From positions 1 through 12,567 of the forward strand of contig CATPBC010000217.1 in assembly GCA_955652195.1 (NCBI GenBank): a stretch of DNA of 12,567 nucleotides. The letters are read 5' to 3'. The stretch's first letter is position 1. Each line of letters begins with the position of its first letter. Source of the stretch: an uncultured Xanthobacteraceae bacterium. Its GTDB lineage: Bacteria > Pseudomonadota > Alphaproteobacteria > Rhizobiales > Xanthobacteraceae. Positions 1 to 12,567 of the stretch are shown piece after piece. A model generated the notes under the pieces. It did not search any database, was not told the origin of the DNA, and was given only the letters and a program-made list of their open reading frames with translations. The translations under genes and the position numbers were made by a program.

Positions 1-204
1 AAGTTGAAGTCGTCCCGACTGAAGGTCCCGTGATCGCGCTTCGACTTAAGGACCACCGGGATGTGCGGCGCTATCTTCGCCTCGTTGACTAGCCAGTTGA
101 GGTTGGCTCCAGAACCGTAAGCCGTATCGCCCGCGAGCCGTTCGGGCTAGATGTCAAAGCGTTGCTCGGTGCGCTCGATCATGATCTTGGCCGTACTGAC
201 GCTC
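1..204 (-). pseudogene. IS1182-type transposase fragment, truncated and stop-interrupted
   Basis: Read on the minus strand, positions 204 to 1 give a DDE transposase segment: IMIERTEQRFDI, a TAG stop at 147-149, then PERLAGDTAYGSGANLNWLV and PHIPVVLKSKRDHGTFSRDDF. The GDTAYGSG block (carrying a catalytic Asp in this family) and the KSKRxxGTFSRDDF stretch are typical of IS1182-family transposases. The stop falls where relatives normally carry a sense codon before PERLA. The N-terminal part is absent, because reading back beyond about 204 runs directly into aldo/keto reductase sequence. The C-terminal part lies beyond the left window edge, so its state is unknown. This is a dead remnant. I am confident of the transposase identity, less so of the exact IS family. 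Confidence 0.72.
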
Positions 205-440
205 GGCCGATCCGGACAGCGAACCGCCGGCGAGCACGCGGATGCCCATGACACCGATTCCGGCCGCGCTGCTGTGATCGAACAGCCGCCCATAATCCTG
301 GGCCGGATAATTCGGCGGCAGTTCGGTGGCCGCGGATGGATTGAGCATATTGTAGACCACCTGGGCAATCTTTCAGCAAGACCGGGACCACCCGCATCAA
401 CAGCGTGCCAAGCGCAAGGTGCCCGTCACCACGCGGCAGT
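199..440 (-). pseudogene. Aldo/keto reductase remnant, frameshifted and truncated
   Basis: On the minus strand about 355 down to 200 encodes AQVVYNMLNPSAA, PPNYPAQDYGRLFDH, and GIGVMGIRVLAGGSLSGSAER. This matches the C-terminal half of aldo/keto reductases, NAD(P)H-dependent TIM-barrel oxidoreductases, where NPSA, QDYG and IRVLAGGALSG are common in one clade. Just upstream, the bases read VDAGG in a different frame and the reductase frame meets a TGA, so there is at least one indel. The N-terminal half is missing; up to about 440 only faint similarity remains. The 3' end stops inside the GSAER motif, where transposase sequence takes over. It cannot encode a working enzyme. Confidence 0.55.
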
Positions 441-502
441 CCGTGGTCTCAGGTCACGGTGAGCAGGATGTTGCAGCGGATCGCGGCGACAACAGTGCCA
501 GT

Positions 503-1660
503 TCACGCAGCCCCCTTAACCATTGTTGCCGGCTGAGCAAGCCAGCGCGCGATCCGGGGCCAGATTTGGGTCAGGGTGGCTCTGCCCATGAACAATGCGA
601 GATGTGGGCAGGGTGCTATCGCTTGTTGAATGTCCTGGCTCGCAGTGCCAACCAGGCGCGCGGTCGCGAACACCTGACCCGGAGCCACGAGATCGTCGTC
701 GTGTGCCGCCAGCAGATAGATCGGACAACTCACCTTCGTCAGGTCTACGCATTGGCCAAGCGCGACAAAGCGGCCCGTCGCGAGCCGATTCTCCTTGTAC
801 ACTTGCTCGACCACCTGCAGAAAATAGACGCCGGGCAGATCGACCGTCCAGGCATACCAATCGAGAAACCGGGCTTCCAGCTGCCGTAGCAGTGCCGATG
901 CGACATGATCGGGCACCTGCAGCACACGGTGAATGGCCTCGCGTTCCTCTGCACGCGGACCCCAGAATTCCAGGCTATGCTGGCCGAGCACGCGACCCTC
1001 GCCAACCTCGACAAATTCCCTGAACAGGGAGGTCGGTGTGCCGCGCGCTAATCGGGTCAACGCACAGTCGCCGGCCTCAATATCTATGGGAGCGCCCGCC
1101 AACACCAATTTTCGAACCTTGGCCGGAAAGCGAGCCGCAAAGACCAGCGCCAGCCAGCCCCCCTGGCAAAGACCAACAAGATCGACCTTCGTGCCGAGTT
1201 GGTCGACCAGGACATTGAGATCGGCGAGATAATTATCAATCGATAGAAACCGCATGGTCGCCGTGGCCGAACGCCAATCGGTCACCAAGATCCGCTGTAC
1301 GCCGGCCCCTTGCAGGGCCGCGACGAGGCTGTGGCGAGGCGCAAAGTCCGCAATCGTGGCACCGTGAAGCGCAAACGGGGCGCAGACCAGAGTCGCAACG
1401 CCGTCAGGACTGGTCGAGAAATCCCGCAGCCGTACCGACTCCAATTCGAGCGTGACTTCATTGCGGGTGGTCCATTCCGGTTCGACACCAGGCTGCTGCG
1501 GCTCCGAACCTCCGGCGAGCTTCGCGAACTCCTTGGCTATTGCCGCGGCAAACTCCCTTGCCTGCTCCGCGGCCAGAGCCGGCCAGAGGAAGGCGACGGA
1601 CGGGAATGACGGATTTTTGCTCTCAATGCTGAAACGACGATTGGATCCCATCGTCGCCAT
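503..1660 (-). CDS. PhaC/PhaZ-like alpha/beta hydrolase with cysteine nucleophile
   Basis: 385-residue alpha/beta-hydrolase. The nucleophile elbow reads GLCQGG (Cys165), the G-x-C-x-G-G box of PHA synthases rather than the Ser box of ordinary lipases. The likely triad partners are an Asp within HDDDL (321-323) and His353 in CPHLALFMG. The C-terminal layout (KENRL, then VDLTKVSCPIYLLA, then D, then H, then a Trp-rich end) follows the PhaC order, but the protein is much shorter than class I synthases (about 600 residues) and nearer class III PhaC or intracellular depolymerase-like proteins. The ATG at 1660 is chosen because AGGGAG sits 7 bases upstream; the frame could also open at GTG 1681. 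It is divergent from phaC, which suggests a role in PHA or acyl-ester turnover (inferred). No signal peptide is seen, so it is probably cytoplasmic. Confidence 0.85.
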   Translation of the reverse strand: MATMGSNRRFSIESKNPSFPSVAFLWPALAAEQAREFAAAIAKEFAKLAGGSEPQQPGVEPEWTTRNEVTLELESVRLRDFSTSPDGVATLVCAPFALHGATIADFAPRHSLVAALQGAGVQRILVTDWRSATATMRFLSIDNYLADLNVLVDQLGTKVDLVGLCQGGWLALVFAARFPAKVRKLVLAGAPIDIEAGDCALTRLARGTPTSLFREFVEVGEGRVLGQHSLEFWGPRAEEREAIHRVLQVPDHVASALLRQLEARFLDWYAWTVDLPGVYFLQVVEQVYKENRLATGRFVALGQCVDLTKVSCPIYLLAAHDDDLVAPGQVFATARLVGTASQDIQQAIAPCPHLALFMGRATLTQIWPRIARWLAQPATMVKGAA

Positions 1661-1883
1661 GGTAAAACTCCCTAGTTTCACTTCCAGGTAGCGCAGATTT
1701 CGAGTTCGGCATCATATCCTTGCCACAGCCACCTCCTGGTGTTCAGTCAAGGCGCATTCAGGCCCTGCCAAAAGGGGGTCAAACGGAAAACGCCGGATTT
1801 CCGCGATTCGCTGCCGGGCAACTCTCCCAATGTAGATCCCAGCGTTCCAAGGTACCGGGGCCAGGGTCCGAGGACAGCGTTTC

Positions 1884-1913
1884 TTAACACACACGAGCCA
1901 CACTAGGTATACT
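1884..1913 (+). promoter_or_regulatory. Putative sigma70 promoter of phaC
   Basis: TTAACA at 1884-1889 and TATACT at 1908-1913 are separated by 18 bases and each differs by one base from the sigma70 consensus. Transcription would begin near 1920, leaving a leader of about 80 bases before the ATG at 2004. This also argues against the in-frame TTG at 1914 as the start. The rest of the 343-base divergent region 1661-2003 shows no small gene and no clear promoter for the minus-strand hydrolase. Confidence 0.5.
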
Positions 1914-2003
1914 TTGTGCGACGCGTTGGCGTTGGGCGCATCTTCGATTTGCGCGTCCATGCTCACCGGTAGTCTTGTGGACAATTATCCGCCAAAGAAA
2001 GTC

Positions 2004-3803
2004 ATGGACCCCATCCAGCTCTCGTTGGGCCTGGGTGAGATCGCGGTGCGTAGTCACCGCTTGATGGTCGATTTTCTAACGCGTCGCCCCGAACTGAGCG
2101 GACTGGGTGATCCGGCCGGAATCGGGCAGGCCTTCCTCCAGCTAACCGCCAAGATCATTGCTGACCCGATGTCGATTGCACAGGCGCAGCTTGAGCTGTG
2201 GGCAGATCATATGACACTCTGGCGGCGCACAACGGAACGGCTGTTTGATCCTACAGGCAAGTCTGACCGACGCCCCGTCGCGACCGATCGGCGTTTCCAG
2301 CACTCAGCTTGGACCGAAAACATTCTCTTCGATTATATCAAACAAAGCTACCTGATTTCCGCGGAGGCAATTCTGTCTGCGGTTAGCCGCGTCAACGGCC
2401 TCAATCCGAAAACTGCGCACAAGGTAAATTTCTATACACGCCAGTTCGTTGACGCTATGTCCCCTTCGAACTTTCTCGCTACCAACCCGGAGGTGTTGCA
2501 GACCACGATCGAGACGGGCGGTGAGAATCTTCTCAGGGGTCTGACAAATCTGATGGATGATCTCGAACGCGGGCGAGGACAACTCGCAGTCACTATGACC
2601 GATCTGAAGGCCTTTCGGCTCGGCGAGAGTGTAGCTGCGACACCCGGGAAGGTTATCTTTCAAAACGAGCTGATGCAGCTGATCCAGTACGCTCCCTCGA
2701 CCCCTGAGGTCAAACGGCGTCCCCTTGTCATCGTGCCACCCTGGATCAACAAGTTCTATGTGCTCGATCTGAGACCTAAAAATTCTTTCATCAAGTGGGC
2801 TGTGGATCAGGGACACACGGTGTTCGTGATTTCCTGGGTCAATCCCGACCGGCGTCTCGCTCATAAACGCTTCGAGGATTACATGCTCGAAGGTCCGCTT
2901 GCCGCACTTACCGCTATCGAGGCTGCGGCCGGTGAGCGTGAGGTGAACGCTATCGGCTATTGCCTTGGCGGCACGCTCCTCGCTGCGACGCTCGCGTATC
3001 TGGCGGCTCAGAACGACGATCGCATCCGGAGCGCAACATACCTAGGGACTCTCGTTGACTTCACCGACGTTGGCGACATGGCGGTATTTATCGACGAGGA
3101 ACAGCTGGCGGTACTTGAGAAGCGCATGCGACGGCGTGGATATCTCGAGGGACGCGATATGGCCCTAGCCTTCAATATGCTGCGCGCCAACGACCTCATA
3201 TGGAGTTTTGTCATCAGCAACTATCTCCTCGGCAAGCAACTGATCCCCTTCGATCTGCTCTATTGGAATGCCGACTCCACGCGCATGCCGGCTACGATGC
3301 ACAGCTTCTATTTGCGTAACATGTATCACGAGAACCGGCTTGCCATTCCGGGAGGGATCAGCCTTGCCGGCGTGCCGATCGATCTCAGGCGGATCGAGAC
3401 CCCCACCTTCATACTGTCGACGCGGGAAGATCACATCGCGCCGTGGCAATCGACTTACGCGGCGACCCGGCTATATCAAGGGCCGATTAAGTTCGTGCTT
3501 GCCGATTCCGGCCACATCGCCGGGATGATTAGCCCACCTGGCAGCAAGTATGGCCACTGGCAAAACACCAACCTGCCGAAGACCCCGGCTGAATGGTTCG
3601 AAACCGCCAGCTTGGTTAAGTCCTCCTGGTGGCCGACGTGGGAGGAATGGATATCAGGACATTCCGGGGGTTCGGTCAAAGCACGCGAGCCCGGTGGAGG
3701 ACTATCGCAGCCGATCGAGGACGCACCAGGCTCTTATGTTCGTACCCGCGCCGACAATTTGATGAACGACGCTCCTCACTATGCCGACAAAGTAATCGAA
3801 TGA
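2004..3803 (+). CDS. phaC: Class I polyhydroxyalkanoate synthase PhaC
   Basis: Polymerises (R)-3-hydroxyacyl-CoA into polyhydroxyalkanoate granules with release of CoA. From ATG 2004 it is 599 residues, the usual class I length. The N-terminal helical domain (about 1-190) precedes an alpha/beta-hydrolase core: PPWINKFYVLDL (245-256), SWVNPD (277-282), lipase-like box GYCLGG with Cys320, Asp476 in STREDHIAPW, and His504 in DSGHIAGM, then KYGHW (515-519). The triad order and spacing agree closely with known class I enzymes. ATG 1959 is an alternative start giving 15 more residues; neither has a convincing ribosome site, and TTG 1914 lies inside the probable promoter. The phaJ-like gene follows directly. 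Base use looks less GC-biased than in the right half of the window (impression, not computed), which would fit a transferred segment. Confidence 0.95.
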   Translation: MDPIQLSLGLGEIAVRSHRLMVDFLTRRPELSGLGDPAGIGQAFLQLTAKIIADPMSIAQAQLELWADHMTLWRRTTERLFDPTGKSDRRPVATDRRFQHSAWTENILFDYIKQSYLISAEAILSAVSRVNGLNPKTAHKVNFYTRQFVDAMSPSNFLATNPEVLQTTIETGGENLLRGLTNLMDDLERGRGQLAVTMTDLKAFRLGESVAATPGKVIFQNELMQLIQYAPSTPEVKRRPLVIVPPWINKFYVLDLRPKNSFIKWAVDQGHTVFVISWVNPDRRLAHKRFEDYMLEGPLAALTAIEAAAGEREVNAIGYCLGGTLLAATLAYLAAQNDDRIRSATYLGTLVDFTDVGDMAVFIDEEQLAVLEKRMRRRGYLEGRDMALAFNMLRANDLIWSFVISNYLLGKQLIPFDLLYWNADSTRMPATMHSFYLRNMYHENRLAIPGGISLAGVPIDLRRIETPTFILSTREDHIAPWQSTYAATRLYQGPIKFVLADSGHIAGMISPPGSKYGHWQNTNLPKTPAEWFETASLVKSSWWPTWEEWISGHSGGSVKAREPGGGLSQPIEDAPGSYVRTRADNLMNDAPHYADKVIE

Positions 3804-3886
3804 ACGGTCGCCGCAATATTTCGAGTTCCTTCGCCAATACTGGCCGCGACGCCCACCTTGCCAGCGACCCGCCGGCGGGGTCCGAT

Positions 3887-4360
3887 ATGCCGATGAATCT
3901 GCCACCGCTGCGCACGCTGTTCTTCGAAGACCTTTCGATCGGCATGACCGAGCGGCTGGAGAAAACTGTCGCCTCGTCCGACGTCGTCGGCTTCGCGCAG
4001 CTTACCGGCGACCGCAATCCGATCCACCTGTCGGAGCATTTTGCCGCCAAAACCTCGTTCCGCACCCGGATCGCGCATGGGCTCTACACAGCGAGCCTGA
4101 TCTCGGCGGTGCTCGGCACGCGGCTGCCCGGCCCCGGTGCGGTCTACATCTCGCAGACGCTGAACTTTCGCGCCCCAGTCAAGATTGGCGATACGGTCTT
4201 CGTCACTGTCACCGTCGCCGAACTGATGCCGGAAAAATCCCGCGCCCGATTGTCCTGCCTCTGCGAGGTCGACGGCGAGGTGGTCTTGGACGGCGAAGCA
4301 CTGGTGAAGGTACCGAGCGAGAAGGCAGCGAAGGACAAGCGGCCGGTGATGAGGTTGTAA
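3887..4360 (+). CDS. MaoC-like (R)-specific enoyl-CoA hydratase, PhaJ type
   Basis: Hydrates trans-2-enoyl-CoA to (R)-3-hydroxyacyl-CoA, the monomer for PhaC, linking beta-oxidation to polymer synthesis. From ATG 3887 it is 157 residues, a single hotdog-fold domain of normal PhaJ size. The hydratase motif is FAQLTGDRNPIHLSEHFA, with the catalytic pair Asp42 and His47, followed by RIAHGLYTASLIS and the overhanging strand LNFRAPVKIGD. The frame is open upstream: an ATG at 3800 overlaps the phaC stop in an ATGA arrangement and would add 29 residues that look non-conserved. I prefer 3887 because a GGCGGGG stretch lies 6 bases before it and the domain starts soon after. Either way the gene is coupled to or co-transcribed with phaC. 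The specific substrate chain length cannot be told. Confidence 0.9.
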   Translation: MPMNLPPLRTLFFEDLSIGMTERLEKTVASSDVVGFAQLTGDRNPIHLSEHFAAKTSFRTRIAHGLYTASLISAVLGTRLPGPGAVYISQTLNFRAPVKIGDTVFVTVTVAELMPEKSRARLSCLCEVDGEVVLDGEALVKVPSEKAAKDKRPVMRL

Positions 4361-4366
4361 GGAACT

Positions 4367-4436
4367 CGTAGGGTCGGTAGACCGAAACGAAACCCACCAT
4401 CAATGCCCGCGACGAAACGATGGGTTTCGCGACGCC
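4367..4436 (+). repeat. Palindromic intergenic repeat (REP-like)
   Basis: Just after the hydratase stop, CGAAACCCA (4388-4396) is inverted perfectly as TGGGTTTCG (4421-4429), with a 24-base loop. The flanking GTAGGGTCGGTAGACCGAAACG resembles degenerate copies of the GTAGGGTGGGT...AACCCACC palindromes scattered in many proteobacterial genomes, here decayed. It could fold as a weak hairpin in the phaC-phaJ transcript, but has no T-run, so I do not call it a terminator. Nothing gene-like is seen from 4437 to 4508. Confidence 0.45.
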
Positions 4437-4508
4437 TGTCATCGGACGCTGCTACAGCCGCTTTCAACGGATCGACGCAACACCTTCTAATCTTGCGGGG
4501 GAGCGAGC

Positions 4509-4775
4509 TCACCGCTCCGTGTAGTCGCCACCCTGCTGCTTCGTGACGCGCTTGCCGGCCACGATCAGGCCCAGCACGACGGCGAGGATTCAATCGGCCT
4601 CGACCTGTGCCTTGATCGCATCCTTCTCGGCAGGCACCCATGGCGTTGCCACACCGACGCTGTCGGCTTCGTACTCCGCAGTCGCATTGTGGAGGCTGAC
4701 GCTCTCCAGATAGCGCCAGGGTGATGTGCCGCCCCGAGTGGTCATGTTCGGCTTATCGCTCACCAATGACACCAT
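4509..4775 (-). pseudogene. Small single-helix membrane protein, broken by one TGA
   Basis: From ATG 4775 (AGGA 8 bases upstream) the frame encodes about 61 residues, including TTRGGTSPWRYLESVSLHNA and PWVPAEKDAIKAQVEAD, then TGA at 4590-4592. The same frame continues past the stop as ILAVVLGLIVAGKRVTKQQG and GDYTER before TGA at 4509-4511. The continuation is a coherent transmembrane helix with a basic tail. The simplest reading is an 88-residue protein in which a Trp codon (TGG) became TGA. I do not recognise the family; size and layout recall small phage or mobile-element membrane proteins, but that is only a guess. A GTG at 4763 is another possible start. It lies within 200 bases of the tRNA scar. 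Confidence 0.5.
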
Positions 4776-4794
4776 ATATCAGGTCCTCGACAGT

Positions 4795-4826
4795 GCGCTG
4801 AGGCGACACTGCGCTGAGGCGACACT
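4795..4826. repeat. 16-bp tandem duplication
   Basis: GCGCTGAGGCGACACT occurs twice head to tail (4795-4810 and 4811-4826), with no mismatch. A short hairpin, GCCGC-TCGT-GCGGC, follows at 4830-4843. The repeat lies about 90 bases before the tRNA fragment. Confidence 0.8.
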
Positions 4827-4857
4827 CCTGCCGCTCGTGCGGCGATGATCTAAAGCT

Positions 4858-4879
4858 GGATGCAACGCGGATGCAACGC
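4858..4879. repeat. 11-bp tandem duplication next to tRNA scar
   Basis: GGATGCAACGC occurs twice in tandem (4858-4868 and 4869-4879), perfectly. It sits 33 bases from the tRNA-derived segment, on the presumed island side. Short direct repeats at such a place can be tyrosine-integrase arm sites; here that is only a suggestion. Confidence 0.75.
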
Positions 4880-4911
4880 GCGGCCTAATTCGTTCGTGCT
4901 TTCAAGCCTCC

Positions 4912-4964
4912 GCAGCGGAATCATAATCCGTGTGTCGGCGGTTCAAATCCGTCCTCCGCTACCA
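4912..4964 (+). other. 3' fragment of tRNA-Met(CAT), attachment-site-like
   Basis: This segment is the 3' part of an elongator tRNA-Met. Anticodon stem GCGGA/TCCGT (4915-4919, 4927-4931) encloses loop ATCATAA with anticodon CAT at 4922-4924. Variable loop GTGTC, T-stem GGCGG/CCGTC with loop TTCAAAT, 3' acceptor strand CTCCGCT (4954-4960), discriminator A and encoded CCA (4962-4964) follow in order. The 5' acceptor strand (AGCGGAG expected) and the D-arm are absent upstream, so it is not a functional tRNA. Integrases that target tRNA genes leave exactly such a duplicated 3' segment at the far end of the element. The missing half is on the left, so the element would lie leftward of 4912 and the original chromosome rightward of 4964. 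Confidence 0.75.
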
Positions 4965-5030
4965 CTTCTTCTGAAACTTGGATGTCGAGTCGCGCAAACG
5001 CGCTCGTGGCGCATTATCCACGCGCAGCAA

Positions 5031-6098
5031 TCAGCCGCCGAGGCTGTCTGGCTCCGGCACTTCCTGCAGCGCGGCGAGTGAAGGCGACGAATGCGCCTCG
5101 GGCATCAGCTTGGGGCGCGAATGCGGTGCCTGCTCGCCGCGCCACTGCATCTTCGTTAGCGCCGCTTCCGCTTCGGCGATGAGCTTGCGCATAATCTCGC
5201 CGACCGGAAGGATCTCGCTGATGCCGCCCGCGGTCTGGCCTGCGGTCAACAGACATTCATGCTGCCGGCCCGCCTGGGTGGTCGAGACGATCTGGCTGCG
5301 CAGGCGATCGCGCTGACGGCGCGCTTCGTCGCGCTTGGCGCTCCATTCCGTCAAAAAATCCGTCGGCAGCGAGCGCAGCACGGTCTTGAATCCGGCCGTG
5401 CCCGGCAGCGGCGTGATGTCGTTAAGAACCTCGGCCTTGATCGCGTCCTCGGATTTGGCGACCACGATCGCCTCTTTCCATTGCAGCGGCGCCGGAGCTT
5501 CTTTGGAGGCGATGAACCGGGTGCCAAGATTGACGCCGACGGCGCCGAGTATGAGGGCCGCCGCTATGCCGCGGCCATCAAAAATGCCGCCGGAGGCGAC
5601 CACCGGGATCGGCGATACTGCATCGACGACTTGCGGCACCAGCGTCATCGTACTGACCTCGCCGCAATAGCCTCCAGATTCGCCACCTTGCGCGATGATC
5701 ACATCGGCGCCGCTTTCCGCGGCTTGCAAAGCCTGGTCCACGGTCGTCACTTGCACCATCACACGCGCACCGGCATCGTGGGCCGCACGCGTCAGATCGC
5801 CCGGATCGGCAAGCGTGAATGAGATCACCGCCGGCCGCGCCGCCAGCGTGTAGCGAAACGCCTCGGCGTCGAGGGTCTGCGGAATGTGATTGATCGCGAA
5901 GGGACGCTGCGTCAGCGTCTTCGCCAAGTCGATATCGCGCTTGATCGCCGCGAAGCTGCGGAACAGCGTCCCGATGCCGCCCAGTCCGCCGGCATTGGAG
6001 ACCGCGGCCGCAAGTTCAGCGGACGTGCAGGTTCCCATCGGCGCCAAGATGATCGGCACGTCGATGCCGAACAGATCGCAAAGCGGGGTCGTCAGCAT
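5031..6098 (-). CDS. Nitronate monooxygenase-like FMN-dependent flavoprotein
   Basis: 355-residue TIM-barrel flavoprotein of the nitronate monooxygenase/2-nitropropane dioxygenase family. It opens PLCDLFGIDVPIILAPMG (5-22), has the glycine turn NAGGLGGIG (35-43), IIAQGGESGGY (134-144), LVPQVVDAV (153-161) and the FMN-phosphate stretch ASGGIFDGRGIAAALILGA (168-186). Known nitronate monooxygenases have GGH where this reads GGY (Tyr144), so the usual catalytic His is absent. Activity on nitronates is therefore doubtful; an enoyl or quinone reductase-like role is possible. The start at 6098 is supported by GGAG 7 bases upstream. The C-terminal 60 residues are long and Ala/Glu-rich. The gene stands alone, 66 bases from the tRNA scar. 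A possible promoter, TTGCTC (6164-6169) and TATTAT (6142-6147) with 16 bases between, lies upstream on the minus strand. Confidence 0.88.
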   Translation of the reverse strand: MLTTPLCDLFGIDVPIILAPMGTCTSAELAAAVSNAGGLGGIGTLFRSFAAIKRDIDLAKTLTQRPFAINHIPQTLDAEAFRYTLAARPAVISFTLADPGDLTRAAHDAGARVMVQVTTVDQALQAAESGADVIIAQGGESGGYCGEVSTMTLVPQVVDAVSPIPVVASGGIFDGRGIAAALILGAVGVNLGTRFIASKEAPAPLQWKEAIVVAKSEDAIKAEVLNDITPLPGTAGFKTVLRSLPTDFLTEWSAKRDEARRQRDRLRSQIVSTTQAGRQHECLLTAGQTAGGISEILPVGEIMRKLIAEAEAALTKMQWRGEQAPHSRPKLMPEAHSSPSLAALQEVPEPDSLGG

Positions 6099-6146
6099 GG
6101 CTCATCTCCGGACATCCGCTCGGCACGCCGGACTGTCACAAATAAT

Positions 6147-6218
6147 AGCAATCGGCCAAATACGAGCAACCAGCCACGTACGGGCGATCGGCCAAGTACT
6201 GGCAATCGGCAATGTCGA
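6147..6218. repeat. Four imperfect 18-bp tandem repeats
   Basis: The units are AGCAATCGGCCAAATACG (6147-6164), AGCAACCAGCCACGTACG (6165-6182), GGCGATCGGCCAAGTACT (6183-6200) and GGCAATCGGCAATGTCGA (6201-6218). They share a roughly RGCAATCGGCCAARTACG core. They directly abut the likely promoter of the flavoprotein gene. Copies vary at several positions, so the array is not recent slippage only. Confidence 0.8.
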
Positions 6219-6412
6219 GAGCCTTAGAAACTGACGCATAATATTCGCTGCTGCAAACGCGAATGTCCAGTTCGTGACAGAACGACAATTCTGGAACGGC
6301 GGGGCCGTAAAAATGTTTGTGTCAAGATGGTGGGTGGTTCGCGGCACCGTCTATCGGCACGGCTATACCGGACCTGGCTGGCGTTAACGTCAGTCGTCGA
6401 TGATATAGACGC

Positions 6413-6436
6413 CGGGCCGGCAATAGCCTGGGCCCG
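6413..6436 (-). terminator. Weak hairpin after the enolase-superfamily gene
   Basis: CGGGCC (6413-6418) is inverted as GGCCCG (6431-6436), with a 12-base loop, 2 bases past the stop codon of the minus-strand gene. There is no T-run on the downstream side, so intrinsic termination is uncertain. Confidence 0.25.
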
Positions 6437-6438
6437 TC

Positions 6439-7536
6439 TCAATCCTTCACCGCGCAATCGCGCAAGATTTCCGGCCTGAAGGCAAGCCCATGGCCGGGCC
6501 GTTCCGGTGCCGCGATGAATCCGTTCGCAACCGGCACCGGATCGACCCACAGATCCTCGGCGAGCCCCATGTCCTCGATCCACAGTCCGTTCGGAATCGA
6601 GGCGAGCAGCTGGATATTCAATTCCGGAAACAGATGCGGCGCGATCGTCATACCCCAGGTGTCGGCGACGGTCGCGATCTTACGCAATTCGGTCAGCCCG
6701 CCGCGCATCGGATCGGGCTGCAGGATCGGCAGCCGCGGATTTTCGAAAAACGGCTTGAGATCGAAGCGCGTGAAATGCGTCTCGCCGCCAACCACGCGCA
6801 GGTCGAGCGCCTCGGCGATGCGCAAATAGCCGGCAAAATCGTCCGGCACCACCGGCTCTTCCAGCCAATAGACATTATGATCCTGGAACTTGCGGCCCAT
6901 CGCAATGGCGATGTCGGCGGTCCAGCCCATATTGACGTCGATCATGATGTCGATGTCCGGACCGAGCGCCTCGCGCATGCGGCGCACATTGTCGAGATCG
7001 GTTGCCAGATCGGCAGTGTGAGCGACCTGCATCTTGATCGCTTTATAGCCGCGCTCCTTGTAGTGCAGCGCCTTTGCGATCATGCCGTCGCCGCCGCTGC
7101 CGCGAAAGCAGCCGCTGCCATAGGCCGGCAATTGCCCGCGGTAATGACCCCACAGCCGATGCAGCGGCAGATTGGCGCGTTTGCCGAGCACATCCCACAG
7201 CGCGATATCGAGAGCCGACATCGCCATCACCGCGATTCCGGCGCGGCCATAGGTGACGGTGGCGCGCCACAGATCCTGCCAGATCGCCTCGACCGCACTC
7301 GCGTCTTTACCGAGCACGCGCGGGATCACGCATTCTTCCAGGCAGCATGCGATCGTGCGCATCGCCGGGCGGAACAAAAACAAATAACCCATCCCCGCGA
7401 TGCCGCCGCGCGTCTCGACATCGAGCACCAGAAACTCGCGCATCGGGCCGAAGGCGTGGCCCTTGAGCCATGGCGTTTGCGGCCACGGCACGCGCAGCAT
7501 GGTGGTGCGAATGGCCGTGATGGTCGTATCGGTCAT
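6439..7536 (-). CDS. Mandelate racemase/muconate lactonizing enzyme family protein
   Basis: 365-residue enolase-superfamily enzyme; such proteins abstract a proton alpha to a carboxylate, often in sugar-acid dehydration or racemisation. The N-terminal capping domain (about 1-125) includes TAIRTTMLRVPW and the 20s/50s loops; the barrel carries Mg2+ ligands Asp200 (MIDVN), Glu226 (WLEEP) and Glu252 (GGE). The His/Asp dyad of the mandelate racemase subgroup is present: Asp275 (LQPDPMRGG) and His301 (APHLFPE). The second Lys of the KxK motif is replaced: AIKMQ, Lys168-Met-Gln170. ATG 7536 is chosen because the protein opens like its family; the frame is open much further upstream but overlaps the next gene and reads as low-complexity Arg/Ser. 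No strong ribosome site is seen. Substrate unknown, likely a sugar acid. Confidence 0.92.
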   Translation of the reverse strand: MTDTTITAIRTTMLRVPWPQTPWLKGHAFGPMREFLVLDVETRGGIAGMGYLFLFRPAMRTIACCLEECVIPRVLGKDASAVEAIWQDLWRATVTYGRAGIAVMAMSALDIALWDVLGKRANLPLHRLWGHYRGQLPAYGSGCFRGSGGDGMIAKALHYKERGYKAIKMQVAHTADLATDLDNVRRMREALGPDIDIMIDVNMGWTADIAIAMGRKFQDHNVYWLEEPVVPDDFAGYLRIAEALDLRVVGGETHFTRFDLKPFFENPRLPILQPDPMRGGLTELRKIATVADTWGMTIAPHLFPELNIQLLASIPNGLWIEDMGLAEDLWVDPVPVANGFIAAPERPGHGLAFRPEILRDCAVKD

Positions 7537-7566
7537 GCAACGCTCGATTTGTTTCTGATCAGGTTG

Positions 7567-7610
7567 GCAGCAACCGTCCGGATGCTGCGAAAACTTATTC
7601 CGCGCGTCAA
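7567..7610 (-). promoter_or_regulatory. Possible promoter/operator before the enolase-superfamily gene
   Basis: A perfect inverted repeat, GCAGCA (7567-7572) and TGCTGC (7583-7588) spaced by 10 bases, lies 31 bases upstream of the start codon. On the minus strand TTGACG (7605-7610) could be a -35 box with a poor -10 (CAGCAT, 7582-7587) inside the repeat. A regulator binding there would block the promoter. This is suggestive only. Confidence 0.28.
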
Positions 7611-7657
7611 CGCCGGCAGACCAGCAATATTTGATTTCGCTCCGCGATCCGACGCCT

Positions 7658-8500
7658 TCAGCGCGACCGTAAGGAAAAGTCCGTAAACACTGGAGGCGGC
7701 GGCGTCGGTTGCGTCGCCCGCTGCGTCGATTGAATGATGATCTGCAAGGCGTCGTCCTCACCGCCATTGGTCGGCAGCCATGGCGGCTGCGGGCAAGGCA
7801 GTGTCGAGGCGGTGCCGCAGCCCGCAAGCTCGATGACATTGCCGTTATTAAGCCCGCCGACGCCGCCGTTCTGGTCGAACTTGCTCGATAGATACTCAAT
7901 GTAATGAATGACCTGCTCGGCCGTGACCCGCGCCGGCTGTCCGGGTGGCGTGTTCCAGTTCAAGATCGTCACCACAAAGCCGGGCCGATACACGACAATC
8001 GAGCCGCCGCCGTTCGTAATTGTCAGTATACCGTTCAGATTGATGGCGTGCGTTACATGGGCGCTGTGATCGACGGTCGCGGTGCCGCCGCGGATGCCAA
8101 TCGTCGCCGCCGGTGTGTCGATCGTGACGGCGCCCTGATGGCTCAATTTGCCGCCGATATATTGCAGCGTGCCTTGGGTGAGCTTGGTGAGCATGTGGCC
8201 GCTGCCGGATGCCGGATCGTAGACGAATTCGTCGATCAGCAGATTGGTGTTCGGCGCGATATTCAGCGTACTTTGATCGACAAACAAAAGCTGCACCGAT
8301 CCGGTCGGCGAGGTATGGATGCGTTCTTTGTGCAGAATGCGCGAGCCGACCTTGAGCGTTATGATCGAGCCGCCGGGTGGCGTGCTTTCCGAATTCGGAT
8401 TGACCGCAGTCGCGGTGCCGACCTGTTGCGCGATCGCGGTCGCACCGCCGATGAGAACGGCAGCGAATGCCAATACGACTGATTTATATTTCCCAGCCAT
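7658..8500 (-). CDS. Secreted FecR-domain protein
   Basis: 280 residues. A signal peptide is clear: basic MAGKYK, hydrophobic core to residue 24, likely cut at AIA-QQ. The FecR-type domain spans about 40-145, with GGSIITLKVGSRI (43-55), a FVDQSTLNIAPNTNLLIDEFVYDP stretch in two parts (73-96) and TIDTPAATIGIRGGTATVD (126-144). The C-terminal 70 residues are Pro/Thr/Gly-rich with two Cys (228 and 236) and look disordered. GAGGA 7 bases before ATG 8500 fixes the start. It begins 26 bases after the beta-barrel gene stops, so the two are probably one operon. Unlike the iron-citrate anti-sigma FecR, it has no cytoplasmic N-terminal part or internal transmembrane helix, and no sigma factor gene is adjacent. 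A periplasmic or surface role is likely (inferred). Confidence 0.85.
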   Translation of the reverse strand: MAGKYKSVVLAFAAVLIGGATAIAQQVGTATAVNPNSESTPPGGSIITLKVGSRILHKERIHTSPTGSVQLLFVDQSTLNIAPNTNLLIDEFVYDPASGSGHMLTKLTQGTLQYIGGKLSHQGAVTIDTPAATIGIRGGTATVDHSAHVTHAINLNGILTITNGGGSIVVYRPGFVVTILNWNTPPGQPARVTAEQVIHYIEYLSSKFDQNGGVGGLNNGNVIELAGCGTASTLPCPQPPWLPTNGGEDDALQIIIQSTQRATQPTPPPPVFTDFSLRSR

Positions 8501-8526
8501 TACGTGTTCCTCAACAGATCTGCCCT

Positions 8527-9903
8527 TCAAAATCTGACCAGCGGTCCGGCACTGACGGACAGATCGCGATACGAGAACGCCGCCACGTTGGATGACGCGT
8601 TTCGATATTGCACGAGCGATGCGAAGATCAGTTTGTGCCAGATCGGCACTTCCAGGCCGAGCCCAGCGCGCCATTCAGTTGTATGCGCCGTGGTGAACGG
8701 CGCCACGAACGGATCGGCTGCATCGTACTCCCATCGAGTCACGCCGACGGTCGGAACGACGGTCCAGTGCGCACTGCCGGCCCAAGGAGTCGGCCAAGAG
8801 AACGTCCACGGCAACCAGATGTCGGCGACATAGCTGCGATAGCTATCGAAGGCGAATTGGTCACTGGCGCGGGCATAAGCAACGCGCGATTGCCAGGCCA
8901 GCCCGGAAGCGACCGGTCCCGATGCTTGCAGCCCGACGGTCGACAGTGTGCCGCTCAATCCGCTGGCGAGCGGGTAGAGCGCGGAATTGCGGAAACTCTG
9001 TTGAACGATTTCGCCGTAGGGATCGAGCGAAACATTCCCTACCACGGCGTGAAGCGTAAGCCCGCCGCCGATGCCGCCCATATAGGGGGCGTCGGCCAGC
9101 AATGCGCCGGTCGCAACGACATAGGGTTTGACAGTCAAGCCGTTGATGTTGCCCGGCGCGAAGGCAAAGCGCGGCCCGGCGCGAATTTCCATCAAACCGA
9201 CATCGAACTGGTGCAAGGCAAATTGTTGCGCGTCGTAGGCAATCACGGAGGCTTCGAAGGTCTCGCCGGTCTGGGTTTCGAAGTCGTGGACGTAATTAAT
9301 TCCGGCGGTGCCGAACCAATTCCAGTCCGGCCGGGCAGTGAAACTGCTGTTGAGCGTCCCGCCGGAGGCAAGAACTGTCTGCGCTCCAGCACCGAGACTG
9401 GCATTGCTCTGATAACGCAAGCCGGTCTGCGCGAAACCTGAGAATTGATCGGGTCGAAGCTTTTTATCGACCAGTTCGAGCAGGTCCTCAATCTTCTGGC
9501 GAAGCTCGGGCGTAACGTCCGGCATCTGCAGCGCCGTTTGCAGATAACCGCGCGCCTGGTCGTAGGAGCCAAGCTGATAATAGAGCACGCCCAGCTGAAA
9601 GCGTGTTGCGGCAAGCCTGGGATTATAGAAGCGGAGCTGTTCGTAAGTGCTGATCGCCGATTCGATATCACCGCGATTAGCCGAAGCGGCGGCATATTGA
9701 ATCGTATTGCCGAGATTGCCTGGCTGGGCCAGCACGCCCGCAAACAGGGGATCGATGTCCTTGGTGAAATCGGAAGCGCCCTGGCCGAAAGCAGTGACCG
9801 TAAGTGCGATCAGGAGCGCCGCCGAACCGGCGACGTCCGCGATCAAGCCCGGACCTGCCCGCCTTATGCTGGTTGCCACGAGAACGTCGACCCCCAAGCC
9901 CAT
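8527..9903 (-). CDS. TPR-containing outer-membrane beta-barrel protein
   Basis: 458 residues from ATG 9903. Residues 1-40 carry a signal peptide (RR near 14-15, hydrophobic 28-39, likely cut near AFG-QG). Residues about 65-150 are two to three TPR-like helical pairs (NRGDIESAISTYEQLRFYNP, then RFQLGVLYYQLGSYDQARGY). From about 153 on, alternating strands rich in aromatic ends (GFAQTGLRYQSNA, DWNWFGTAGINYVHDF, and so on) run to a terminal Phe (GPLVRF), as in outer-membrane barrels. This resembles TPR-plus-porin proteins such as surface lipoprotein assembly modifiers, but I cannot assign that family firmly. Other in-frame starts are ATG 9957, GTG 9879 and TTG 9999; GTG 9879 would leave a tidier signal peptide. 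It is first in the likely operon with the FecR-domain gene. Confidence 0.82.
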   Translation of the reverse strand: MGLGVDVLVATSIRRAGPGLIADVAGSAALLIALTVTAFGQGASDFTKDIDPLFAGVLAQPGNLGNTIQYAAASANRGDIESAISTYEQLRFYNPRLAATRFQLGVLYYQLGSYDQARGYLQTALQMPDVTPELRQKIEDLLELVDKKLRPDQFSGFAQTGLRYQSNASLGAGAQTVLASGGTLNSSFTARPDWNWFGTAGINYVHDFETQTGETFEASVIAYDAQQFALHQFDVGLMEIRAGPRFAFAPGNINGLTVKPYVVATGALLADAPYMGGIGGGLTLHAVVGNVSLDPYGEIVQQSFRNSALYPLASGLSGTLSTVGLQASGPVASGLAWQSRVAYARASDQFAFDSYRSYVADIWLPWTFSWPTPWAGSAHWTVVPTVGVTRWEYDAADPFVAPFTTAHTTEWRAGLGLEVPIWHKLIFASLVQYRNASSNVAAFSYRDLSVSAGPLVRF

Positions 9904-10197
9904 CGCCGCCGTGGATGGAATGTTTTCCCGAACGACCCACGCTGCCCGACGCACCATCCATATTAGCGCACAAAGGCGGGATTGCGCCAACCGTGGCAAA
10001 ACCAGACCAAAGCCATTGACGCGGATCAGGCGGCAGTTTCTGCTTTTGCGGCGCGCGCAGGCGGATTTTTTCGCGATGTGGCGAAACGATCACAGTCCAT
10101 CGCTAGGCCGAGCCTGCAAAACAGCGGCGAGACCGTGTTGGATCGATTATGATTTGCGTCATGGCGGGCTCGGCGACAGGACGAGCCGGAGGTGTTC

Positions 10198-11997
10198 GTG
10201 GCTTCGACGATCAATGTGGCGGCTTATAGCGACGCGCTCGTCGTGCTCGGCACGGCGGGCATTGTTGTGCCGATCTTCAGCCGGCTCGGTTTTAGCCCGG
10301 TGCTCGGCTATCTGGCCGCCGGGGCGCTGTTGGGGCCACTTGGGCTGGGTTCGCTGATCCAATCCTTTCCGGCGCTGTTCTGGTTCACCGTGAGCGACGC
10401 CAAGGACGTCGCCGGCATCGCCGAACTCGGCGTTGTTTTTCTGTTGTTCCTGATCGGCCTCGAACTGTCGCTGCACCGGCTGATGACGATGCGGCGCCTG
10501 GTAGTCGGGCTTGGGGGACTGCAGGTTCTGATCACGACGGTGCTGCTCGCCGCGCTCGCCGTCTATTTCGGAAAGACGCCCTCGGAAGCGATCATTCTCG
10601 GGGCGAGTCTGTCGCTGTCTTCCACCGCGATCGTACTCGAACTGTTATCGAAGCAGGAGCGCCTGAAGACGAATGTCGGACGGACGAGCTTTGCTGTCCT
10701 GCTGGCGCAGGATATAGCGGTCATTCCCCTCCTCATCTTCATCGCGCTGCTCAGTGCCGGTCCGCAAGGCTCGGTGCTCGCCAGCGTCGGCAAGGCGGTT
10801 ATGCAGGCGGCCATCGCGCTTGCCGTTATCATCATTTTCGGCCGCTTTCTGCTGCAGCCGCTGTTCCGGCTGGTCGCCTCCACGCGCTCGCGCGATCTTT
10901 TCATCGCGACCGCGCTGTTCGTCGTCATCGCCGCCGGCGTCATCACCAATCAGGCCGGCCTGTCGATGGCGCTGGGCGCCTTCGTTGCAGGGCTTCTGCT
11001 CGCCGAGACCGAATACCGCCGCGCCGTTGAAGCGACCATCGATCCGTTCAAGGGCCTGTTGCTCGGAATTTTCTTCTTCACCGTCGGCATGAACATCGAC
11101 GTGCGCGAATTATTGCGCGAGCCGCTGTTGCTGGCTGGCGGCGTATTCGGACTGATTGCCCTCAAATCGCTTGTCATCGTCGGTCTCGCCAAGCTGTTCC
11201 GTGTGTCATGGCCGGTCGCGGTCGAAATGGGACTCCTGCTCGGCGCGGGCGGCGAATTCGCCTTCGTCGGTATTGCAATGGCTTCGCAATTACGCCTGAT
11301 CGATTCCGCCACAGCCACTTTTGTGCTCACCGTCACTTCGGTGACGATGGCATTGATACCGCTATTGTCCTTTGTTGCGCGGCACTTCGCATCCCGCTTG
11401 CGCTCCGCCGCTGCGCCGCCGGAGCTGGCGGCGCGGCCGAGCGCTCGGCAAAGTCATGCGATCGTCGTCGGCTATGGCCGTGTCGGCAAAGTAGTATGCG
11501 GACTGCTGAATGAGCATGGCATTCCCTATATCGCTGCCGATTTCGATGCTTCGACGGTGACCCGCGACCGCCGCGATGGCCACGACGTTTATTATGGCGA
11601 CGCCGCCGATCCGAAGTTTCTCGAGATTTGCGGCTTGGCCAGCGCCGCCGGCGTCATTATCACCATCCATGCCGACGAGCTGATCGATCTGGTGGTCGAG
11701 CATGTCCGCGCCATGCGGCCGGATGTGCTGATTGTTTCGCGGGCGCGCGATGCCGATCACGCACGTCATCTCTATCGCCTCGGCGCCACCGACGCGGTGC
11801 CGGAAGCGATCGAAGCCAGCTTGCAACTCTCCGAAGCCGCCCTGGTCGGTCTCGGACTGCCGACCGGTCCGGTGATCGCGTCGATTCACGAGAAGCGCGA
11901 CGAGATCCGCCGCGGCTTGCAGCAGGCGGCGCGCGCCGCGGGGTTGCAAGCTACGCGTTCGATCAGAGCGAAGAGGCGCGCGATTTTCAGACGATAG
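10198..11997 (+). CDS. Kef-type CPA2 potassium/proton antiporter with RCK domain
   Basis: 599-residue inner-membrane protein of the monovalent cation:proton antiporter-2 family. Residues about 10-395 hold some twelve hydrophobic segments of a Na/H-exchanger domain, with GVVFLLFLIGLELSL, the ion-binding motif LLAQDIAVIPL (Asp172), and LGIFFFTVGMNID. Residues about 420-535 are a cytoplasmic RCK-N (TrkA-N) Rossmann domain: HAIVVGYGRVGK with GYGRVG at 425-430, and ADFD closing strand 2. No RCK-C domain follows; the end is a basic tail. GTG 10198 is chosen because GGAGG lies 5 bases upstream; GTG 10192 overlaps that site. It likely exports potassium in exchange for protons under electrophile or pH stress. 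It stands alone, divergent from the barrel gene; no KefF/KefG-type ancillary gene is next to it. Confidence 0.93.
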   Translation: MASTINVAAYSDALVVLGTAGIVVPIFSRLGFSPVLGYLAAGALLGPLGLGSLIQSFPALFWFTVSDAKDVAGIAELGVVFLLFLIGLELSLHRLMTMRRLVVGLGGLQVLITTVLLAALAVYFGKTPSEAIILGASLSLSSTAIVLELLSKQERLKTNVGRTSFAVLLAQDIAVIPLLIFIALLSAGPQGSVLASVGKAVMQAAIALAVIIIFGRFLLQPLFRLVASTRSRDLFIATALFVVIAAGVITNQAGLSMALGAFVAGLLLAETEYRRAVEATIDPFKGLLLGIFFFTVGMNIDVRELLREPLLLAGGVFGLIALKSLVIVGLAKLFRVSWPVAVEMGLLLGAGGEFAFVGIAMASQLRLIDSATATFVLTVTSVTMALIPLLSFVARHFASRLRSAAAPPELAARPSARQSHAIVVGYGRVGKVVCGLLNEHGIPYIAADFDASTVTRDRRDGHDVYYGDAADPKFLEICGLASAAGVIITIHADELIDLVVEHVRAMRPDVLIVSRARDADHARHLYRLGATDAVPEAIEASLQLSEAALVGLGLPTGPVIASIHEKRDEIRRGLQQAARAAGLQATRSIRAKRRAIFRR

Positions 11998-12056
11998 GTT
12001 TGCCCCGCTTGGTACAGCACGTAAGCGGTGCGCCACTAATCCGGGAATCCGTTTGC

Positions 12057-12567
12057 TTAGCCCTGCGAGCCCGAACTCACTATCGGCGAGGCGCTTTTGG
12101 CTGGCGCGGCGCTCTTGGCTGGCGCGGCGCTCTTGGCTGGCGCGGCGCTCTTGGCTGGCGCGGCGCTTTTGGCTGGCGCAGCGCTCTTGTTTGGCGAGGT
12201 AGTCTTGCTTGCCGAAGCGCTCTTGTTTGCCGAGGCGCTCTTGTTTGGCGCCGCCTCTTTGGATGCGCTCTCCTTCGGCGCGATCTCCTTGGGCGCGATC
12301 TCCTTGGGCGCGATCTCCTTGGGCGCGATCTCCTTGGCTACTTGCGGCTCCTTGGCCCGCACCAGCGTCGGCGGGCCGCCGACCGGCCGGCACGACTGCC
12401 CATGCGCCGCTTGCAAGATCGCGGTCAGAGCTATGCCCTGCAGTCGCGGTGATTTGTCGATGGTGAAATGATCGACGCTGGTATCGCTCGAGACATCGAC
12501 ATTTGATATATTTGATTGAAAGCCCTCAGACTCCTTCACATAGGCATTTCTCGGCTGCGTCAGATTG
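12057..12567 (-). CDS. Lys/Ala/Pro-rich repeat protein, C-terminal part
   Basis: The frame is open from the right window edge to TAA at 12057, so the N-terminus lies outside; a GTG at 12539 exists but has no good ribosome site. Visible order: a non-repeat part (about 60 residues, including DHFTIDKSPRLQGIALTAIL and QAAHGQSCRPVGG), then pentapeptide KEIAP four times, then about nine hexapeptides near AAPAKS or SANKSA, ending SPIVSSGSQG. The tail is strongly basic, without hydrophobic segments, and resembles histone H1-like or PAK-type linkers that bind nucleic acid or span the periplasm. I do not recognise the N-terminal part. It converges on the antiporter gene with a 59-base gap and no evident terminator. 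Confidence 0.6.
   Translation of the reverse strand, partial: NLTQPRNAYVKESEGFQSNISNVDVSSDTSVDHFTIDKSPRLQGIALTAILQAAHGQSCRPVGGPPTLVRAKEPQVAKEIAPKEIAPKEIAPKEIAPKESASKEAAPNKSASANKSASASKTTSPNKSAAPAKSAAPAKSAAPAKSAAPAKSAAPAKSASPIVSSGSQG
12088..12267. repeat. 18-bp coding tandem repeats, about ten copies
   Basis: Units of 18 bases start at 12088. The three units 12106-12159 are identical (GCGGCGCTCTTGGCTGGC); 12088-12105 and 12160-12177 differ by one to two bases; units from 12178 to 12267 are increasingly divergent. Each unit encodes one AAPAKS-like hexapeptide on the minus strand. Confidence 0.88.
12270..12329. repeat. 15-bp coding tandem repeats, four copies
   Basis: CTCCTTGGGCGCGAT occurs at 12285-12299, 12300-12314 and 12315-12329, with a one-base variant at 12270-12284. 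Each unit encodes KEIAP on the minus strand. It lies just upstream (in reading direction) of the hexapeptide array. Confidence 0.88.

Follow-up and report, generated by a model that had tools for sequence, protein, structure and literature searches.

We conclude, with a probability of about 95%, that a mobile island carrying a phage-type tyrosine integrase has integrated into a tRNA-Met(CAT) gene, and that one of its ends lies at position 4,912 of the stretch of DNA analyzed here (the window; 12,567 bases), which is the entire contig C217 of a draft genome (3.3 Mb; 511 contigs; completeness, 85.34%; contamination, 1.58%). The original prediction, that an orphan 3' half of tRNA-Met without a preceding 5' half marks an integrated island to its left, was borne out by an intact tRNA-Met in the same genome, an integrase gene adjoining it, an empty site in congeners, and the failure to detect the island genes at any of the 15 congener loci compared. 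The raw sequence of a draft genome was thereby enough to locate one end of a mobile island. The features are collected in Table 1.

The segment at 4912-4964, which runs from the anticodon arm through the variable loop and the T arm to the acceptor 3' strand and CCA, matches, base for base, nt 25-77 of the intact tRNA-Met(cat) called by ARAGORN at 1064-1140 on the minus strand of contig C377 of the same genome (G000). Because the adjoining base is mismatched on both sides, the coordinates of the fragment are exact. The C377 match had an E value of 2.5e-21, the three other matches of the same genome search had E values of at least 0.59, and no further copy was found by this similarity search of the draft genome. 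The 24-base 5' half of the tRNA was absent from the window, its best ungapped match in 4601-4911 being 13/24. ARAGORN called no tRNA in the window, and Rfam gave no tRNA match at E ≤ 1 on the whole window and a sub-threshold partial tRNA at 4905-4953 (19.2 bits vs a gathering threshold of 29) on 4800-5050 alone.

The integrase gene that was predicted to stand beside the intact tRNA-Met lies just past its 3' end on C377, where the open reading frame is directed at the tRNA and stops 202 bases from the CCA. Database relatives P0001-P0047 were 73-92% identical to the integrase. The best-scoring relative was 92% identical and 371 aa long, and alignment to it indicated that about 85 N-terminal residues are lost at the contig end; no contig of the genome gave a close match to this missing N-terminus (two were listed, with E values of 0.08 and 0.38). 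Separately, a 15-base match between window 4657 and the 3' end of the integrase gene was judged to be due to chance.

In the proposed mechanism, the island would enter the tRNA-Met(CAT) gene by a crossover in the anticodon arm, its own copy of nt 25-77 would restore the full tRNA-Met at the end on C377 (attL), and the original 53-base 3' segment of the chromosome would be displaced to the other end (attR, in the window). The island would then extend from C377:1063, on the side toward position 1, to window 4911; 5,974 of its bases are visible, with a PHA-storage module as the visible cargo. Its missing middle would be continuous between the ends of C377 and C217, which are unjoined in the assembly, and the island may still be mobile at present. 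A search of the genome with window 1-500 and C377 1-400 found no linking contig, and phage structural, relaxase, or transfer genes were absent among the genes named on the visible island ends.

Such an element is a genuine but ordinary example of the classical genomic island anchored in a tRNA gene, and its mechanism is well known. The Islander paper (PMC4383910), which states the principle of tRNA-integrated islands, defines them as intervals of 2-200 kb on one replicon and counts 3760 islands that have a 3' fragment and 2083 whose site is anticodon-centered. Like the anticodon-centered islands described there (type A), the present one combines an intact tRNA gene with a displaced 3' fragment of the same polarity and has its integrase inside; unlike them, it is known from its two ends, which lie on separate contigs. 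Here, the intact tDNA and the cognate end fragment were found in the same genome, the integrase gene, cut at its N-terminus by the contig end, was found inside the interval, and the congener gene order at 6 of 15 loci indirectly places the 3' fragment beyond the tDNA, on its downstream side and with equal orientation. Another paper expects tRNA gene remnants of this kind to be pervasive in prokaryotes (PMC9897764), and a third treats integration into tRNA genes of Sinorhizobium meliloti and contains neither of the terms tRNA-Met and Met-CAT (PMC11476347).

Table 1. Positions of the features discussed (window coordinates unless another contig or genome is named)
Feature	Position	Strand	Evidence
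Displaced 3' fragment of tRNA-Met(CAT), nt 25-77, proposed core of attR	4912..4964	+	53/53 identical to C377 1064-1116(-)
Tandem 11-bp direct repeat (GGATGCAACGC twice), putative integrase arm-type sites, attR arm	4858..4879	+	19 bases (4860-4878) identical to C377 arm
Integrated island, right-hand end (at the left end of the contig)	1..4911		PhaC, PhaZ-like, MaoC, integrase in 0/15 congener tRNA-Met loci
IS1182-type transposase gene remnant	2..191		69-70% DNA identity to plasmid genes
Alpha/beta hydrolase like PhaZ depolymerase or class III PhaC (cargo)	503..1681	-	PF06850, 47.9 bits; TIGR01836, 97.1, below cut-off 365.3
Class I PHA synthase PhaC (cargo)	1914..3803	+	TIGR01838, 737.6 bits, cut-off 622.65; PF07167
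MaoC-type (R)-enoyl-CoA hydratase (cargo)	3629..4360	+	PF01575, 81.5 bits
Chromosome right of the island	4965..12567		6439-7899 and 10192-11997 orthologs beyond intact tRNA-Met in congeners
Mandelate racemase/enolase-superfamily gene, right-flank anchor	6439..7899	-	PF13378, PF02746; 79-88% protein identity, 6/15 loci
Kef-type K+/H+ antiporter, second right-flank anchor	10192..11997	+	PF00999, PF02254; 70-77% protein identity, 5/15 loci
Tyrosine integrase ORF	C377 (L006) 1-861	+	PF00589 Phage_integrase, 68.4 bits, cut-off 27.1
G167 intact tRNA-Met	436837-436913		
G167 tRNA-Met 3' fragment	420260-420310		
G167 integrase	420411-421535		

Arm repeats at the two ends

Repeated sites lie on both sides of the putative core, as for tyrosine recombinases with arm-type sites. 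The longest word common to the two 200-base arms was ATGCAACGCGGATGCAACG, 19 bases long (window 4860-4878 and C377 935-917), whereas the longest shared word in a shuffle control (n = 1000) was 12. Judged from these sequences, the 11-base tandem repeat is probably an arm site, which this integrase would bind, and it probably ties the ends on C377 and in the window to one element. A tandem duplication with a 16-base period (TGCGCTGAGGCGACAC twice) was also observed at 4794-4826, about 90 bases left of the fragment and just outside the arm repeats.

A complete counterpart of 16.5 kb, an element of another family, was found in G167 (G167:C2:420260-436913). This prophage-type element resembles the present one in its tRNA-Met(CAT) target, its related integrase (56% identical to P0001), and its attL arm array; its repeat is exact over 52 bases and starts at tRNA nt 27. 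It carries portal, capsid, and terminase genes, none of which is among the genes named on the visible ends of the present island, and its integrase lies at the fragment end, whereas that of the present island lies at the intact-tRNA end. In the G167 prophage, a DNA methylase gene also adjoins a ResIII-type helicase gene (L106 12890-17593), possibly as a restriction or defense pair. Two further elements, in G397 and G419, have tRNA-Phe as the target, with repeats of 53 and 50 bases that start at tRNA nt 26-27.

Counted from the CCA, the tandem motif of the attL arm occurred at 129/130 and 140/141 in the present element, G167, and G397, and reading of the G419 sequence revealed a TGCGAC variant at the same place. 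Inverted copies (GTTGCA or GTTGCG) were located at 65 here, at 65, 75, and 114 in G167, at 63 and 73 in G397, and at 73 in G419, and the G167 arm had one additional forward site at 67. The attL arms of this element and G167 were 92% identical in the motif and 37% elsewhere, and three of their sites were in register; none of 20,000 shuffled pairs shared even one, a figure that overstates the case because the motif was picked after inspection. The register of the attR arms was looser, with the motif or its variants at somewhat different distances in related elements: forward sites preceded the core by 51 and 40 bases here, 63 and 52 in G167, 42 in G397, and 12 in G242, and the pattern used found none in the attR arm of G419. 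A one-mismatch scan for the 10-base motif gave no match in 8 of 19 sources, all 8 being loci of related integrases.

A pattern scan of viral contigs for the arm array yielded seven loci. One is a provirus (L127) whose ends carry two parts of a tRNA-Met repeat, with an integrase 47% related and the motif 129 bases after the CCA. In another (L123), the array lies 128 bases after tRNA-Arg(CCT), and no related integrase was found on the contig. ARAGORN called no tRNA at the other five; the match in L125 is probably due to chance because the motif lies inside a distant integrase gene. The arm array, with several tRNA targets, provides a handle to find and delimit further elements of this integrase family.

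The strongest competing explanation, although an improbable one, is that two elements sit in tandem in the same tRNA-Met, the integrase on C377 belonging to the newer and the fragment in the window being left from an older one that has been lost in part. Two insertions would suit the missing middle, the remnants of other genes and the decayed frame on the left side of the window, and the arm motif, which could be common to two elements of one integrase family. Against this, the arm repeats agree over 19 bases at the two ends, compared with 12 between the arms of G167, and the assembly search described above found no further copy of the fragment.

The tRNA-Met locus in congeners and the flanks of the island

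The tRNA-Met loci of 15 of 19 congeners were compared (G010, G015, G016, and G018 were omitted, having no strong full-length match or a match at a contig end), with genes detected by tblastn at E 1e-10. At 6 of the 15 loci (L061, L063, L064, L066, L073, and L074), both flanks were found around one intact tRNA-Met in the same polarity, with orthologs of the C377 MnmA and methyltransferase genes upstream and of the racemase-type or Kef genes of the window downstream. The gap from the CCA to the first downstream anchor was shorter than 600 bases in three of these six (289 bases in G008, 563 in G004, and 46 in G005), which represents the empty site; in G019, where only the downstream side is visible, the CCA is 164 bases from Kef. 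Both flanks in the expected order were missing from view at the other nine loci: L065 and L072 showed the upstream genes only, L062 and L075 the downstream genes only, L068 and L069 (G003 and G014) a tRNA-Met inverted relative to the conserved neighbors, and L067, L070, and L071 neither flank by protein, L067 matching C377 at the DNA level over 221 bases, some 9.5 kb upstream. PhaC, the PhaZ-like hydrolase, MaoC, and the integrase were detected at none of the 15 loci.

The original prediction placed the sequence from 4965 onward directly after an intact tRNA-Met in a relative lacking the island. This holds at the level of flanking genes at the six loci; base by base, the join does not appear because the DNA up to about 6435 is diverged or replaced, window 4968 to about 6435 having no match to the congeners. 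The right side had likewise been described as ordinary chromosome, which fits the conserved racemase-type and Kef anchors (one of the five Kef-bearing loci has the tRNA flipped) and does not fit the NMO gene (5031-6098) or the FecR-domain and TPR genes (7658-9999), which were detected by tblastn at E 1e-10 at 0 of 15 congener loci; the right flank is therefore itself mosaic.

Other observations were made around this locus. An ABC transporter gene between the methyltransferase gene and tRNA-Met (L006, on C377, 1352-3220) was undetected at the 15 congener loci. An open frame of short repeated motifs (KEIAPKEIAPKE and KSAAPAKSAAPA) lies at 12057-12539 on the minus strand, at the right contig end. 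The idea of the tRNA-Met locus as a genus-wide insertion hotspot was not supported: in G002, G007, G011, and G017, where 2.6-6.3 kb separate the tRNA from the anchor, the gap contained neither a 12-base repeat of the 3' part of the tRNA nor a match to this integrase.

The congener loci also bear on the possibility of a chimeric draft genome, in which C377 and C217 would come from different organisms. The contig number, completeness, and contamination of the assembly leave some room for this; however, a chimera is very unlikely, since neighbors of one and the same tRNA-Met of congeners are found on both contigs, which also match each other in the 53-base repeat and the arm repeats. Least probable of all is that tRNA-Met was simply duplicated in part, or left as a pseudogene, with no relation to any integrase: partial tRNA genes can arise otherwise, as with one inside a CRISPR array reported in PMC9897764, but this copy begins within the anticodon arm, as do those of related elements, and an integrase lies beside the intact copy, and we rejected duplication without integration on the empty site in congeners and the arm repeats flanking both copies.

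Relatives of the integrase and the side of its gene

In an order sample of 397 genomes, 15, including the present one, matched integrase P0001 at E 1e-80. At 7 of the 14 other loci, a same-strand tRNA-like 3' fragment was found just after the integrase (two of the seven being weak), and one more (L098, integrase 51% identical) adjoins an intact tRNA-Gln. Among the congeners, integrases matching at E 1e-3 were present in 13 of 19 genomes, the closest being 49% and 46% identical.

The integrase of the present island lies at the intact-tRNA end and is directed at the opposite-strand tRNA, whereas it lies at the fragment end in most relatives with a visible tRNA piece. In the loci compared with L006 (L106, L107, L127, L129, and L098), the intact-tRNA end is also its place in L098, and it is directed at an opposite-strand tRNA in L129. 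Among viral relatives, 79 of 80 loci were examined, L133 being left out as it is on the same contig as L104; 39 of the 79 end at the integrase stop, and 40 have DNA beyond it. Within 350 bases in these 40, the T-arm pattern was found on the same strand in 20 and on the opposite strand in none, a count made with a pattern that missed the opposite-strand tRNA of L129, which was found by reading the sequence; 152 control stretches gave 4 same-strand and 6 opposite-strand matches.

Two relatives are arranged as here, L129, the closest of the viral loci, and L098. The L129 integrase (IMG/VR contig 3300043313_001825) is 68% identical to P0001 and, like the present one, is directed at an opposite-strand tRNA through a reversed arm array; unlike here, the tRNA is another one, by eye Arg(TCG), cut by the contig end. 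In L098, the integrase stop faces the intact tRNA-Gln across 57 bases; inverted sites occur at 51 and 62, and the stretch that was read showed no tandem motif. Thus, the placement of the integrase at the intact tRNA is a minority arrangement. It is also found outside the closest relatives and can be combined with a different arm spacing, and the difference from most relatives is a mild surprise.

The island may come from a family of alphaproteobacterial integrases whose arm array tends to lie at a constant distance from the tRNA 3' end, whereas its members have changed both the tRNA target and the side of the att site that carries the integrase gene. We hold this reading tentatively, at slightly less than an even chance, our support having been lowered because L098 shares the integrase side and has its arm sites at other distances. 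If it is true, the att module and the integrase gene would be separable pieces, and such an element would here carry a mobile PHA-storage module.

Cargo of the island

As originally noted, a PHA module lies left of 4912, consisting of PhaC, a MaoC-type hydratase, whose true start is probably later than the start of the open reading frame, and a hydrolase resembling PhaZ or PhaC. The broken transposase noted there was also recovered in the piece at 2-191, which resembles an IS1182 transposase gene (4 of the 10 matches listed were annotated as IS1182 family transposase and 1 as transposase); Pfam gave nothing informative for the transposase pieces. The further claim that the left side holds broken genes applies to this piece, to 197-366, and to a small decayed, stop-bearing frame near 4480-4720, for which Pfam and a plasmid search gave no identification, and does not apply to the three main genes, which are long open frames. 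The segment at 197-366 looks like a gene remnant; its identity was 79% to a portion of a gene on a Bradyrhizobium plasmid that is annotated as aldo/keto reductase and 78% to C96 of this genome. The GC content of the island part (59.6%) hardly differs from that of the right side (61.8%).

MaoC/PhaJ-type hydratases feed (R)-3-hydroxyacyl-CoA from beta-oxidation into PhaC, and the PhaC/MaoC set found here may work in this way. The island PhaC was 48-52% identical to the best congener copy in 16 of 19 genomes, the other three, which are less complete, having none, and 51% identical to a second copy in this genome on C352, where the matched stretch contains one TAG. A PHA synthase unlike that of the genus itself thus sits on the island, beside a second copy elsewhere in the genome. 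With the PhaC DNA, a search of 390 other family genomes, in each of which two candidates were scored, gave no match at E 1e-200, and 14 of 384 other genomes in a class sample matched at 70-73%, all of them listed under other families within the class; these family and class samples revealed no close donor genome. A PhaC search of viral contigs gave nothing informative. In public metagenome data, 39 of the 120 protein matches listed were 97-99% identical over at least 95% (7 of the 39 without a source), and these near-identical proteins indicate that the gene itself is not rare.
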